Assembly: GCA_030068145.1 (NCBI GenBank)
Contig: JAPJBO010000496.1
Coordinates: 62,001 to 126,000 of the forward strand
Source of the DNA: Diplonema papillatum
Taxonomy: Eukaryota; Euglenozoa; Diplonemea; Diplonemida; Diplonemidae
Length of the DNA stretch: 64,000 nt
Direction of reading: 5' to 3'
Position numbers and translations under genes: made by a program. Under the pieces are notes generated by a model. The model was not told where the DNA came from and made no database searches. It was given only the letters and a program-made list of their open reading frames with translations. This document shows, in pieces, positions 8,451 to 27,039 of the stretch (position 1 is the stretch's first letter; the number at the start of each line of letters is the position of its first letter).

Positions 8451-9656
8451 CTACGGGAGGTATATCGGCGGGTCGTGCGGCCCCGTGCACGACCTCGCGC
8501 CGGCAAGCGTTTCGTAGCACGCCTTGCAGCCTTTGAAGACGTGCGAGAGGGGGCACGTGCACACCGCCGCCTCCGCGCGCGTGAAGAAGCACGTGTCGCA
8601 GCCGGCGAACGGTTTGTCCGGCGTGCAGAAGTCCGTCGCGCAGTTGGCAGCCGCGCGTGGGTCGTCCCAGCAGTACCCGCAGCCCGGGTGCAGATCCACG
8701 CGGCAGAAGGGAATGGGTCCGTACGTGGGCTCGGGGAACAACGCGTCTGGTGCGGAGGTGGTGTTCGGCTTGAACGACGGGAAGGGCACTATACACTGGT
8801 CGGCGAGGCCTTGGGTCGCGAAACACACCGTGCAACCGGGATACGGCTGCACGGCGGGGCACGAGCAGGTGCGGGCTTCGGCTTCGGTCTCCCAGCAAGC
8901 GCCGCACCGGCGGACGGGCGCCGCCGCTGTGCAAAACAGAGACGCGCACGCGTCTGCGGTGATCTGCTGCTCCCAGCAGTACCCGCAGCCCTCGAAGTAC
9001 CCGAACGGGCAGAACCCCGGCGCGAACGTCGCAGGCGCGGCCGTCGGCGGCGCCCGCGTCGGAGCCACCGTCGGCACCGCAGTGGGCGGCACCCCGGTCT
9101 CCGGCGCCGCCGAAGGCGCCCCCGTAGGCGGCGCGCCGGTCCCCGGCACCACCGTCTGCGGCGCCACGGTGACGGGCACTGCCGTCGGCCCCACTGCAGG
9201 CGATACAGTAGACGGAGGGATGGTGGGCGGTGCTGCTGTGGGTATTGTGGTAACTGTCGGCGATACAGTAGGCGGAGGGATGGTAGGCGGTGCAATCGAG
9301 GGCGCTTCGGTGCCAGGAGTGCGGGGAGACTTGCCGCTGTGGTGATGGTGGTGGTGCTTCTTGCACTTTTTCTTCTTCTTGTGCGAGTGGTCGTCGTCGT
9401 CGTCGTCATCGTCGTCGTTTCTCCCCCTTCTTTTCCGGTTGTCGTCGTCGTCGTCGTCGTTCCTCTTCCCCGCGCCTTGCCGCCGCCGATCGGACACGAA
9501 CCGGCCGCACGGCAGGCGCAAAAACGTGCACCAGTGCTGCCGCCAGTAGCCGCCCTGAGGCTGCCCAGCGCCGGCGCCGAAGCTGGGCAAGTACCCCACG
9601 GGCGTCGCCGAGCCCCCGGCCACCATCATCAGCACGGTTAATGCGGCGAGCTTCAT
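8451..9656 (-). CDS. Putative secreted Cys-module protein, paralogue 1
   Basis: 401 residues. ATG at 9656 is chosen because it starts a clear signal peptide (MKLAALTVLMMVAGGSA, cleavage likely before TPVG); the longer frame upstream adds only low-complexity residues. Order: signal peptide 1-17; W/G-rich segment to about 55; acidic and basic runs (D6, D9, K5, H6) at 66-106; Thr/Pro/Ala mucin-like region 111-213; two Cys modules, about 216-288 and 317-392. Each module has GCGYCW, then CxxC pairs at regular spacing, with Ala-rich x-A-x-x-C segments, ending in CTGP or similar. The even Cys count suggests disulphides, while the Asp/His runs suggest cation binding. Paralogues are at 16738 and 25621. 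I recognise no named family. A cell-surface, matrix or mineral-associated role is inference only. Confidence 0.8.
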   Translation of the reverse strand: MKLAALTVLMMVAGGSATPVGYLPSFGAGAGQPQGGYWRQHWCTFLRLPCGRFVSDRRRQGAGKRNDDDDDDNRKRRGRNDDDDDDDDDHSHKKKKKCKKHHHHHHSGKSPRTPGTEAPSIAPPTIPPPTVSPTVTTIPTAAPPTIPPSTVSPAVGPTAVPVTVAPQTVVPGTGAPPTGAPSAAPETGVPPTAVPTVAPTRAPPTAAPATFAPGFCPFGYFEGCGYCWEQQITADACASLFCTAAAPVRRCGACWETEAEARTCSCPAVQPYPGCTVCFATQGLADQCIVPFPSFKPNTTSAPDALFPEPTYGPIPFCRVDLHPGCGYCWDDPRAAANCATDFCTPDKPFAGCDTCFFTRAEAAVCTCPLSHVFKGCKACYETLAGARSCTGPHDPPIYLP

Positions 9657-9969
9657 CGGACCTGACGCAATTTTTTCTTGTTTTTTTTTTTCTTTGAGTT
9701 TTTTCTTCTTCTGGCTGTCGCCCTCGTTCTGTTTATCCCAGGCCCCCGAAACTGTGGTCTTGGGTTTTTGAGAGCCGATTTGAATTTGAGGGGGGTGGTA
9801 GCTGAAGGTGTTGTTTCCAGCTCGTTTTCGAGAACATCCTCTACTTGAGACGGCGTCACTCGAACAGTCGATCGAGGGGGCGAAGGAGGAATTGGCTGAG
9901 TTATTTTTCCAATTCCAAATCCTTTCCGAACCGTCTCCCTCCCAACCTTGCTTCTGAAGCAAGTGGACT
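9657..9969. other. Upstream region of the 8451-9656 gene
   Basis: On the minus strand the leader just before the ATG is strongly purine-rich (A/G runs at 9660-9715). No TATA element or splice acceptor is obvious. Confidence 0.3.
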
Positions 9970-10292
9970 TCAAACAATCAGGCTTGTCGCCCAAAACCTC
10001 TATCCAGTGGTAGCATCACGGCACTGTCCGATCAAACAGCCGTAGATACCAGGGACTAGAAACGGGAGTTCCTCTCGGACTCCCCCGTATTGCTGTCGGA
10101 ATGCGCTGGCCCGATGGTCTCTCTCTTCATCAGTAGGGTACAACCAACCTGTCTCACGACGGTCTAAACCCAGCTCACGTTCCCTGTTAGTGGGTAAGCA
10201 ATCCAACCCTGAGGCAATTCTGCTTGTCTGGGTTAGGAAGAGCCGACATCGAAGAATCAAAAAGCAACGTCGCTATGAACGCTTGGCGTGAC
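9970..10292 (-). rRNA. Large-subunit (28S) rRNA 3'-end fragment, probable pseudogene
   Basis: Read on the minus strand, 10292 downward gives strings conserved in all eukaryotic 28S rRNAs: GCCAAGCGTTCATAGCGACG, then TTCTTCGATGTCGGCTCTTC, GGGAACGTGAGCTGGGTTTA, GACCGTCGTGAGACAGGTT and TACCCTACTGATGA. The sarcin-ricin loop follows at about 10070-10085 as AGTCCGAGAGGAAC, where the conserved form is AGTACGAGAGGAAC. The rest of 28S is absent, so this is a dispersed fragment, not a working rDNA unit. The substituted loop base also argues for decay. Confidence 0.8.
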
Positions 10293-10424
10293 TCGTTGGC
10301 CGAAACCGGAAGCAGTCTGTCTCTCTTTAGATCCTCACTCGACCCCCCTACACGCACCGAAGGTGCTCAAACAAGTTTGCTAGAAAAGAGTCCCTGACGT
10401 CCTCGACGAGCCGTTGGTTACTAG

Positions 10425-25214: not shown

Positions 25215-25460
25215 ATCACAGCGGCAGCCCGTCCTGGGGCGAGAGCCTCTGCGGAGGGCGGGCTCGTGGGCCCCTTGGACCCACTTGGGCCCCTCAGTGT
25301 ACTCTCAACTTTTTCGTGGGAGGTCCGCTGGACCCTGTTGGACCCCCCTAGTCTCGAATAAACCCTGCACGTCGGCGGCGACCTGCAGTACCCGCACCCC
25401 TCGAAGACCCCGGCTCACAGGCCCCCCGCCGGTGCTGCCAACCCGGCCCGGTTCCTTTTC
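25215..25460 (-). pseudogene. Fragment of the secreted Cys-module family
   Basis: 25218-25290 resembles the 3' end of the next gene (CAGCGGCAGCCCGTC-TTGGGGC, then CGGGCTCGTGGGCC). 25380-25410 carries the antisense of a GCGYC-type module (CAGTACCCGCACCCCTCGAAG). It lies about 200 bp downstream of the intact gene and looks like a broken partial duplication of it. Confidence 0.5.
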
Positions 25461-25620
25461 CCAAACCCGACGGACGTGCACATGTGGCGTTCTTCGGCCT
25501 CTGGCTCAGCTTTCGTGCGCGGTATGCAATGTGTTCCTCGCGCTTTTTATTTCTTTTTTAAGAGCGAAATGTTTGAAGAGAATTCAACCCAAAAAAACAA
25601 AGCCGTGCAAAATGCCAAAA

Positions 25621-27039
25621 CTACAGCGGCAGCCCGTCTTGGGGCCCGAAGCACACGAGGGCCTCGGCTTCGTGGGTCCAGCAGGTCTTGCACCCGGGGT
25701 GGGGCGAGGTGGGCGGGCATGTGCACGAATCAGCCGGCGCCGGGTCGACGTAGCAGTCGCCGCACCCTATGAACGGCTGGACCGCTGGGCAGAACAGCGC
25801 GCACCGGTCGGCGGCGGCCTGTACCGGCCAGCAGTACCCGCACCCCTCGAAGAACCCCGGTACGCAAGCCACCCGACGGTACCCGATCGCCGCCACCGGC
25901 ACGTCCGACGCGGGATACGGCGTCGCGGGACTCTCCGTCGGCGCAGTCGTATCCGGCTGCGAATTCGGCAGCACCGGGCTCGTGCACTGCAACGCCTCAG
26001 CTGCGGTGACGAAGCAGGTTGTGCAGCCTGGGTGCGCACTACCTGAAGGGCACTGGCATCCCAGCGCTGCGGCCAGCGTGCGGTGGCACACGTTGCACCC
26101 CTTGTACGGCTTCCTGGCCGGGCAGAAGGTCGCCGTGCACATCCCCGCCGCCACCGCGGAGTCCCAGCAGTACCCGCACCCCCCGTGGTACCCGGCCCCG
26201 CACGATACCGGCGGGTACACGTCGGACGCTGAGCCACACGGAGGAATCGGCACCCGCGGCGCCGCCGTCTGCGGCGCCGCACTGGGGACTCCGGTCGCCG
26301 GGGGCGACGTGTCCGGGGCGAGTGTCCCCGGCGCTGCTGTCAGCGGGGCCTGTGTCGCCTGCGGGCCGCCCGTCTGCGGCGAATCGGTCGCCGGCGGCTG
26401 CGTCGCTGGGGCGGCGGTCGGCGGGGCGCCGGTCGCGTTGGGCGCGGGCGGCGCCGCCGCCGGCACCGGCGTCGGCGACGCCGTTCCCGTTGCCGCCGGG
26501 ACGGTCGTGGGCGGGGCCCACGTGTACGGCCCGCCGTATGGCGGCGCGGTGCCAGGGCCGCGGGTGGGCGGCTGGTGGTTGCCCTTGCCGTTCTTCCCGC
26601 TCTTCCCGTGCTTGCCGTCGTCGTGGTGGTGATGGTGGTGGTGGCCTCCACTCTTCTTGTTGTTGCTCTTGTGGCTGTGGTGGCTGTGGTCGTCGTCATC
26701 GTCGTCGTCGTCATCATCGTCGCAGTCGCAGCCTTTCTTGCCCGACTTCTTCTTGTTGTTGTTGTTGTTGCCGTGCCGGGATCTCCGGCGGGGGTGCACG
26801 GGCGCTCCTCCCTTGTTCCGGCCGCGGGTAGCGCCGGCCCCGTACACCTGCTGCCCGATGGTCACTCCCGGCGGCAGCAGCTGCTGCGGCTGCTGCGGGA
26901 ACCAGTCGGCCCACATCTTCTGCAACCCGGTCGCCGGCGGCGCGGCGGCGGCCGCGGCGCTGCGCCCGTCGACCCAGAGCCAGGTGGCGTCGCCGCTGGC
27001 CGCGAGCAGCAGCACCTGCACGAGGGCGAAGGCTCGCAT
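25621..27039 (-). CDS. Putative secreted Cys-module protein, paralogue 3
   Basis: 472 residues from the ATG at 27039 (signal peptide MRAFALVQVLLLAASGDA, then TWLW). A Pro/Gln/Ala-rich part to about 80 is followed by N5/K/R runs, CDCD plus a run of eleven Asp, HSHHSH, SNNKK and a seven-His run (about 95-150), then GKHGKSGKNGKG. A long Ala-Pro-Thr linker spans about 165-290. Cys module 1 (about 303-380) opens GCGYCWDSA and module 2 (about 400-468) opens GCGYCWPVQ; both show the GCxxC and CxCP signatures of the family. Length and Asp/His runs are the largest of the three. Metal or mineral binding is suggested by Asp/His runs but not shown. Confidence 0.8.
   Translation of the reverse strand: MRAFALVQVLLLAASGDATWLWVDGRSAAAAAAPPATGLQKMWADWFPQQPQQLLPPGVTIGQQVYGAGATRGRNKGGAPVHPRRRSRHGNNNNNKKKSGKKGCDCDDDDDDDDDDDHSHHSHKSNNKKSGGHHHHHHHDDGKHGKSGKNGKGNHQPPTRGPGTAPPYGGPYTWAPPTTVPAATGTASPTPVPAAAPPAPNATGAPPTAAPATQPPATDSPQTGGPQATQAPLTAAPGTLAPDTSPPATGVPSAAPQTAAPRVPIPPCGSASDVYPPVSCGAGYHGGCGYCWDSAVAAGMCTATFCPARKPYKGCNVCHRTLAAALGCQCPSGSAHPGCTTCFVTAAEALQCTSPVLPNSQPDTTAPTESPATPYPASDVPVAAIGYRRVACVPGFFEGCGYCWPVQAAADRCALFCPAVQPFIGCGDCYVDPAPADSCTCPPTSPHPGCKTCWTHEAEALVCFGPQDGLPL

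Follow-up and report, generated by a model that had tools for sequence, protein, structure and literature searches.

A repeated four-cysteine unit in a family of secretion-type proteins of Diplonema papillatum

Diplonemids are among the most abundant protists of the ocean, and to our knowledge little is known of their extracellular proteins. Diplonema (Paradiplonema) papillatum (P. papillatum in some places below) is a flagellate thought to be predatory. Here we analyze a 64,000-nucleotide stretch of its genome (assembly GCA_030068145.1, contig JAPJBO010000496.1, positions 62,001 to 126,000 of the forward strand; "the window", whose own numbering is used throughout), which carries on its minus strand three related genes, A, B and C, for secretion-type proteins with cysteine-rich repeats (Table 1). 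They are members of a large family, to all appearance not yet described, of secretion-type proteins composed of a small four-Cys repeat, and some other members also have a cellulose-binding-like domain that is present on wall-digesting enzymes of the organism.

Results

An earlier note on this DNA had described three minus-strand genes that each encode a signal peptide, a polyionic block, a linker and two Cys modules, and this layout was found in all three open reading frames (ORFs). A signal-peptide-like hydrophobic start ending in (S/D)AT is followed by the charged block, by a Pro/Thr-rich linker, which fits its description as mucin-like, and by the two modules, and the C-termini have no hydrophobic tail. 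The six modules contain exactly 12 Cys each and share 22 invariant alignment columns, and between-gene tblastn matches go down to E 4e-18; their likeness is therefore not due to chance. The GCGYCW motif for which the module had been singled out is present in five of the six, module 1 of gene B reading GCGSCW instead. The reported difference between the polyionic blocks holds insofar as A and C carry Asp/His runs and B mainly Ser-Lys, although the block of B also contains DDDDKKKK. Codons in the block of gene A are mostly GAC, AAG and CAC with a few synonymous changes, and the DNA of the gene B block consists of 6-, 12- and 24-bp tandem repeats; the fast divergence of the charged blocks is likely due to replication slippage. 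The strand opposite A and B also holds long open frames, and chance or antisense ORFs were considered and rejected, as the Cys pattern, the GC content at third codon positions (GC3, 0.82–0.88 outside the charged block) and the paralogy all fit the minus strand.

Each module of about 75 residues is itself a tandem triplet. Its repeating unit, C-x(5-8)-C-x2-C-x9-C, is 22–24 residues long and has the core GCxxC[WFYH]x[TSD]xx[EA]AxxC. With Cys left out, the units within the modules of A, B and C have a mean BLOSUM similarity of 9.9, compared with −7.3 when non-Cys positions are shuffled, and none of 5000 such permutations reached the observed value. Among 159 distinct units from 56 frames of the window and the genome, defined by C-x(4-10)-C-x2-C-x(8-10)-C, where the range x(8-10) is fixed by the search pattern itself, 157 contain four Cys and the other two one extra Cys; ahead of CxxC, the first unit of each array was judged over 12 residues. 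Over 57 distinct frames, a large share of them near-copies, the spacing C-x2-C-x9-C is found at 505 of 521 occurrences. In 134 distinct cores, Gly occupies position 1 in 67%, Thr or Ser position 8 in 76% and Ala position 12 in 93%, and the residue after CxxC is aromatic or His in 98% (Trp 40%, Phe 37%, His 14%, Tyr 7%).

Every module of A, B and C begins at the first Cys of a unit and finishes at the fourth, and the closed unit is therefore taken to run from first to fourth Cys. An AlphaFold2 model of gene A module 2 predicts a hairpin and a helix in each unit (mean per-residue confidence, pLDDT, 87.6). In a model of both modules, which has a pLDDT of 61 and a disordered linker, five of the six units adopt this arrangement and the third unit of module 1 is a helix without a full hairpin. 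Each unit is most likely a bead of a β-hairpin and a short helix closed by two disulphides, whose pairing we infer to lie within the unit. No significant fold match to the module model was returned by Foldseek, where all six rows within E 10 were examined. A twin CX9C (CHCH) domain was also considered; such domains form a helical CX9C hairpin and lack a signal peptide. The unit has the CX9C spacing, but the hairpin–helix model, the signal-like start and the absence of any Pfam CHCH match speak against this identity.

The author of the earlier note knew of no named domain with this module, and database searches agree: no Pfam model scored above its cut-off on A, B, C or any of the six modules, and a module profile had no match in the Protein Data Bank (PDB). 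PSI, EGF, furin-like, VSP and ephrin-receptor-like Cys domains gave no Pfam match in A, B and C, in the six modules or in eight genome frames or part-frames. Matches below cut-off fell mostly on low-complexity sequence, such as Extensin_1 on B (E 2.2e-6, 28 of 105 bits) and Sporozoite_P67 on A (E 0.0015); in the genome frames, Extensin_1 reached E 1.1e-26 on L018 (94 of 105 bits) and M2AP_beta_dom E 0.00013 on part of L017 (22 of 27 bits, with each individual stretch below the threshold). A PDB sequence search with protein A retrieved 62 sequences to E 10, the best at 0.14, mostly matching the charged or His run. No relative was found in three scans of viral contigs (44, 82 and 128 pattern stretches), in a prokaryote scan (56 pattern stretches) or in a plasmid scan. 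The literal string GCGYCW was not found in the papers searched, and, as far as titles tell, none of those found with both "diplonem" and "cysteine-rich" describes the family. The word "cysteine" is absent from the main text of PMC10161547, and the passages of PMC12697944 that were examined mention it solely as an amino acid.

What had been taken for a three-member family extends to about 121 frames by hand count in the host assembly, which comprises 271 Mb in 2910 contigs (280 Mb and 6181 contigs for the published assembly; PMC10161547). These are 109 frames on 25 contigs, one of them with an internal stop, and a further 12, namely A, B and C and those on C303 (1), C1266 (2), C1500 (1), C1123 (1) and C79 (4). 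The count leaves out fragments and linker-only matches, draws on frames of which part were read, and would fall if near-identical contigs are assembly duplicates, while the underlying searches give lower bounds for large families. Protein A as query matched 97 places, many through the Pro/Thr linker alone, a five-unit relative 146 and a single module 45; the 109 frames come from the search with the five-unit relative, and the further 12 from that with protein A.

Arrays hold 3, 4, 5, 6 or up to 66 units, the longest being that of the C303 frame, whose 66 cores fall into 22 modules with a mean identity of 96%. Ser-Lys-Asn blocks recur in subfamilies C190, C148, C511 and C221, His/Asp/Glu repeats in C586 and plain Pro-rich linkers in C291, C126, C25 and C645; the charged block is nearly missing in C291, and one (PPTSAPPTNA)n frame runs for thousands of codons. 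Some members form near-identical tandem arrays with periods of 1.5 to 2.7 kb, and those of about 2.6–2.7 kb include L061 (C148), C190 and C2045. In the longest dispersed repeat reported for D. papillatum, arrayed units of ~2.5 kb carry a 283-residue ORF that is untranscribed and unexplained (PMC10161547); the C148 array, with 290 codons and a period of ~2.6 kb, is close to it without matching exactly, and we did not equate the two. A module tree built for the order of duplication left A, B and C unresolved.

Purifying selection acts on one array, C291, where the ratio of nonsynonymous to synonymous polymorphism (pN/pS) across 19 recent copies (171 non-independent pairs) is 0.37, with 0.35 in the Cys array and 0.43 before it. 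For modules between and within A, B and C, the corresponding ratio of substitutions (dN/dS) is below 1 in all 15 pairs, with dS near or above 1 in most. The secretion-type architecture proposed earlier is seen across the family, as a simple hydropathy test, not SignalP, was applied to 37 frames that differ from one another in the final 120 residues and detected a signal-like start in 33; the remaining four are cut by the edge of the locus. The same test found a hydrophobic C-terminal tail in none of the 37 (highest 12-residue mean 1.3), which suggests that the proteins probably lack a glycosylphosphatidylinositol (GPI) or transmembrane anchor.

One family gene on C1266 encodes nine units together with two stretches resembling carbohydrate-binding module (CBM) family 1, and a second C1266 match lies in a frame of 3397 codons, which probably holds units as well, as unit matches there report the same frame length. 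This stretch has 110 matches across the genome, with many to a frame, and five other places were examined; one of them lies in the frame of a GH5 cellulase (E 5.6e-56) and another in that of a rhamnogalacturonan lyase (E 9.6e-58). The name CBM1 is applied loosely, by resemblance; a genome search with PF00734 gave no matches, and its 14 control genomes were equally silent, so that this search is uninformative. The presence of the stretch in two family genes and in wall enzymes points to polysaccharide surfaces. The glycan binding suggested in the earlier note thus gains an indirect lead from these two other members and from wall-degrading enzymes, but none from A, B and C, which have no CBM1-like stretch. 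In the enzyme loci L070 and L071, several CBM1-like stretches, small and rich in Cys, come after the GH5 cellulase, and the rhamnogalacturonan lyase carries ricin-type lectin domain(s) and two such stretches. A further Cys-rich region without a Pfam match is common to L019, L028 and L068, whose proteins have Cys units or CBM1-like stretches; it reads GARLCSMTEL...GTGCD in L019 and L028, and its later part was recognized by eye in L068.

Relics of the genes lie beside A and C (Table 1). For the published D. papillatum genome, 28S pieces in scattered places, MULE elements, clusters of genes on the same strand and repeats of gene-end fragments next to genes are described (PMC10161547), and the rRNA pieces, MULE gene, minus-strand frames and A/C relics of the window match these features. 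The copy of charged-block DNA 5′ of gene C likewise resembles the published gene-end repeats. Degenerate, isolated pieces of eukaryotic large- and small-subunit rRNA genes were identified with Rfam at 9935–10301 (−) and 12571–12768 (+), and the long frames of high GC3 in the 8–46 kb region are on the minus strand. Between B and C are a gene for an HSP9/HSP12-repeat protein (PF04119, E 2e-17; 18549–19619, −), with 123- and 279-bp tandem repeats in its DNA, a perfect (AC)246 run (21484–21976) and a 21-bp minisatellite (23605–24207). Several near-identical tandem units of ~958 bp with the same ORFs occupy 27735–33013, and a MULE transposase gene (PF10551, E 3e-17; 50553–53576, +), whose C-terminus appears OTU-like by eye, is flanked on both sides by AT-rich short tandem repeats. 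In the assembly, a 20-base 3′ part of the euglenozoan spliced leader, allowing up to one mismatch, had 661 matches (346 forward, 315 reverse) and none in a reversed control; seven of eight loci read the full Diplonema leader. The leader fits a diplonemid host, and a red alga, an oomycete or another stramenopile, which had also been considered, was dropped.

Table 1. Positions of genes A, B and C, their parts and associated relics in the window
Feature	Position	Strand	Basis or remarks
Gene A, 401-residue secretion-type Cys-repeat protein	8451–9656	−	Open frame from ATG; two 12-Cys modules
Gene A signal-peptide-like start MKLAALTVLMMVAGGSA	9606–9656	−	Hydropathy test; cleavage site by eye
Gene A charged block, Asp/Lys/Arg/His runs	9312–9482	−	57 residues: 15 D, 10 K, 7 R, 8 H
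Gene A linker, Pro/Thr/Val/Ala	9018–9311	−	Translation
Gene A Cys module 1, three units	8763–9017	−	Alignment, shuffle test; between-gene matches for all six modules
Gene A Cys module 2, three units	8454–8711	−	Alignment, shuffle test; AlphaFold2 stretch 8454–8714
Gene B, 358-residue secretion-type Cys-repeat protein	16738–17814	−	Open frame from ATG
Gene B Ser-Lys/Asn block with DDDDKKKK	17410–17658	−	83 residues: 36 S, 23 K, 9 N, 7 D
Gene B linker with APPTE repeats	17230–17409	−	Translation; 15-bp tandem repeat 17229–17343
Gene B Cys module 1, GCGSCW variant	16996–17229	−	Alignment, shuffle test
Gene B Cys module 2	16741–16980	−	Alignment, shuffle test
Gene C, 472-residue secretion-type Cys-repeat protein	25621–27039	−	Open frame from ATG
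Gene C charged block, Asp/His/Lys/Asn runs	26566–26799	−	78 residues: 14 D, 15 H, 12 K, 9 N
Gene C linker, Pro/Thr/Ala	26209–26565	−	Translation
Gene C Cys module 1	25954–26208	−	Alignment, shuffle test
Gene C Cys module 2	25624–25872	−	Alignment, shuffle test
Relic of GCGYCWD coding stretch, 3′ of gene A	8001–8028	−	28 nt, 92.9% identity to gene A
Relic of FEGCGYC coding stretch, 3′ of gene C	25379–25433	−	56 columns, 83.9% identity to gene C
Relic of gene C 3′ end (PQDGLPL-stop)	25218–25240	−	23 nt, 96% identity
Copy of gene C charged-block DNA (26686–26756), 5′ of gene	27226–27314	−	89 columns, 89.9% identity

Discussion

We propose, with a probability of about one half, that these proteins are secreted disulphide-stapled beads on mucin-like strings that form an adhesive or matrix layer at polysaccharide surfaces. 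The units would act as disulphide-closed beads strung in arrays and joined by mucin-like Pro/Thr strings, and the polyionic blocks that head many subfamilies could provide cross-links that are weak and tunable. After release, the proteins would form an extracellular coat or adhere to one, which may be mucilage, a glycocalyx or a layer between predator and prey wall, and the CBM1-like stretch of two members would tie this layer to plant or algal wall polysaccharide, beside exposed wall-digesting enzymes. An adhesive or matrix role is favored because the CBM1-like stretch is shared with wall enzymes, because carbohydrate-degrading enzymes are reported to be exposed at the cell membrane of P. papillatum (PMC12697944) and because it is reported to grow well on pectin (PMC10161547). 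The same proposal is favored by the signal-like starts, the constant Cys number of the units, the hairpin–helix model, the pN/pS of the C291 array and the Pro/Thr linkers and Ser-Lys or Asp/His blocks that recur from subfamily to subfamily, and sessile cells of D. aggregatum sit in a mucilaginous substance (PMC5845003). We infer O-glycosylation and a coat or adhesion role.

Several observations weigh against this proposal. The mucilage is reported for a different diplonemid, D. aggregatum (PMC5845003), and the cell-membrane enzymes mostly use transmembrane or GPI tails (PMC12697944), which the Cys-repeat family lacks. Three of the five other CBM1-like places examined have no Pfam match, and the CBM_1 label itself is weak, as PF00734 scores 14.7 bits on L019 (E 0.03) against a cut-off of 20.6 bits. 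None of the window genes A, B and C has a CBM1-like stretch, and no PF00734 match is listed for them.

The most serious rival, which we nevertheless regard as unlikely, holds that the Cys units themselves are lectin-like carbohydrate-binding modules and the proteins multivalent glycan-binding adhesins for prey walls. The nearly constant aromatic residue or His after CxxC would suit such a role, as would the multivalent arrays behind Pro/Thr linkers, which resemble CBM architecture, and the CBM1-like partner in two genes; yet the aromatic residue may reflect core packing, the units have no Pfam CBM match, and a Pfam scan of eight family frames or part-frames found no catalytic domain. Less probable is a metal- or mineral-binding function, in which the His/Asp runs and the thiols of CxxC/CxC would hold cations or nucleate mineral. 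Asp and His runs occur in A and C and a His/Asp/Glu repeat in C586, and some other diplonemids store celestite and barite (PMC9972996), but the predominance of Ser-Lys in the block of B and its near-absence from C291 make cation binding unlikely as a shared function. Mineral binding, which the earlier note had raised, is likewise not favored, as P. papillatum is recorded in PMC9972996 with 0.01 fmol Sr per cell and without celestite crystals.

That each unit is a CCCC zinc finger of the β-β-α type rather than a disulphide bead appears more improbable still. All six Foldseek rows within E 10 are tandem C2H2 zinc-finger chains with CxxC across the hairpin turn, assigned partly by title (WT1 among them), the others being what we take to be REF6 (twice) and CTCF; in addition, the IRF-2BP C3HC4 finger weakly matches one of the six modules (E 0.01), and the Rpo12 subunit gave a weak PDB match on a Cys module (E 0.53, residues 248–281 of A). 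Like tandem C2H2 fingers, the family combines a predicted CxxC hairpin with a helix in tandem, but it differs in being secreted and Cys-only, with a C-x7/8-C-x2-C-x9-C spacing, and neither CxxC with HxxxH nor a significant structural match was found. We give similarly little weight to the view that these are largely untranscribed, repeat-borne ORFs, amplified as dispersed repeats and without current function. Although the near-identical tandem arrays and the published 2.5-kb repeat with its untranscribed ORF fit this view, the pN/pS of the C291 array and the near-invariant Cys pattern of the distinct units do not, nor do A, B and C, each a diverged single-copy gene with high GC3.

Among known systems, CBM1-bearing wall enzymes and CBM/linker proteins (PF00734) are likewise secreted, with Pro/Thr linkers and small multi-copy Cys modules, but the four-Cys hairpin–helix unit is not CBM1, and A, B and C lack both a CBM1-like stretch and a catalytic domain. 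Hydra minicollagens, NOWA and Chironomus Balbiani-ring proteins also alternate disulphide-rich mini-domains with Pro-rich or charged strings and have giant repeat forms; their Cys spacing differs, and no extrusome or silk link is shown for the present family. Diatom pleuralins with PSCD domains and silaffins resemble it as secreted proteins with Cys-rich or Lys/Ser-rich low-complexity regions but are silica proteins, and we know of no silica wall in D. papillatum. Giardia VSPs and furin-like repeats share CxxC-rich extracellular repeats and large multigene families, whereas the present family has no transmembrane tail, a strict four-Cys unit of 22–24 residues with a helix, and no such Pfam match.

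A bolder version of the coat proposal, which we consider doubtful, is that the unit represents a repeat fold not described before, equivalent to the β-β-α finger but secreted and closed by disulphides. Strung together up to 66 times, it would serve diplonemids as the bead of a coat that adheres to walls and keeps digestive enzymes in contact with algal prey. If confirmed, the fold would add another small disulphide repeat to the known set. With about a hundred or more frames, a strict four-Cys unit, no recognized domain and a link to wall enzymes, the family may offer a handle on how this flagellate adheres to algal walls or acts on them.

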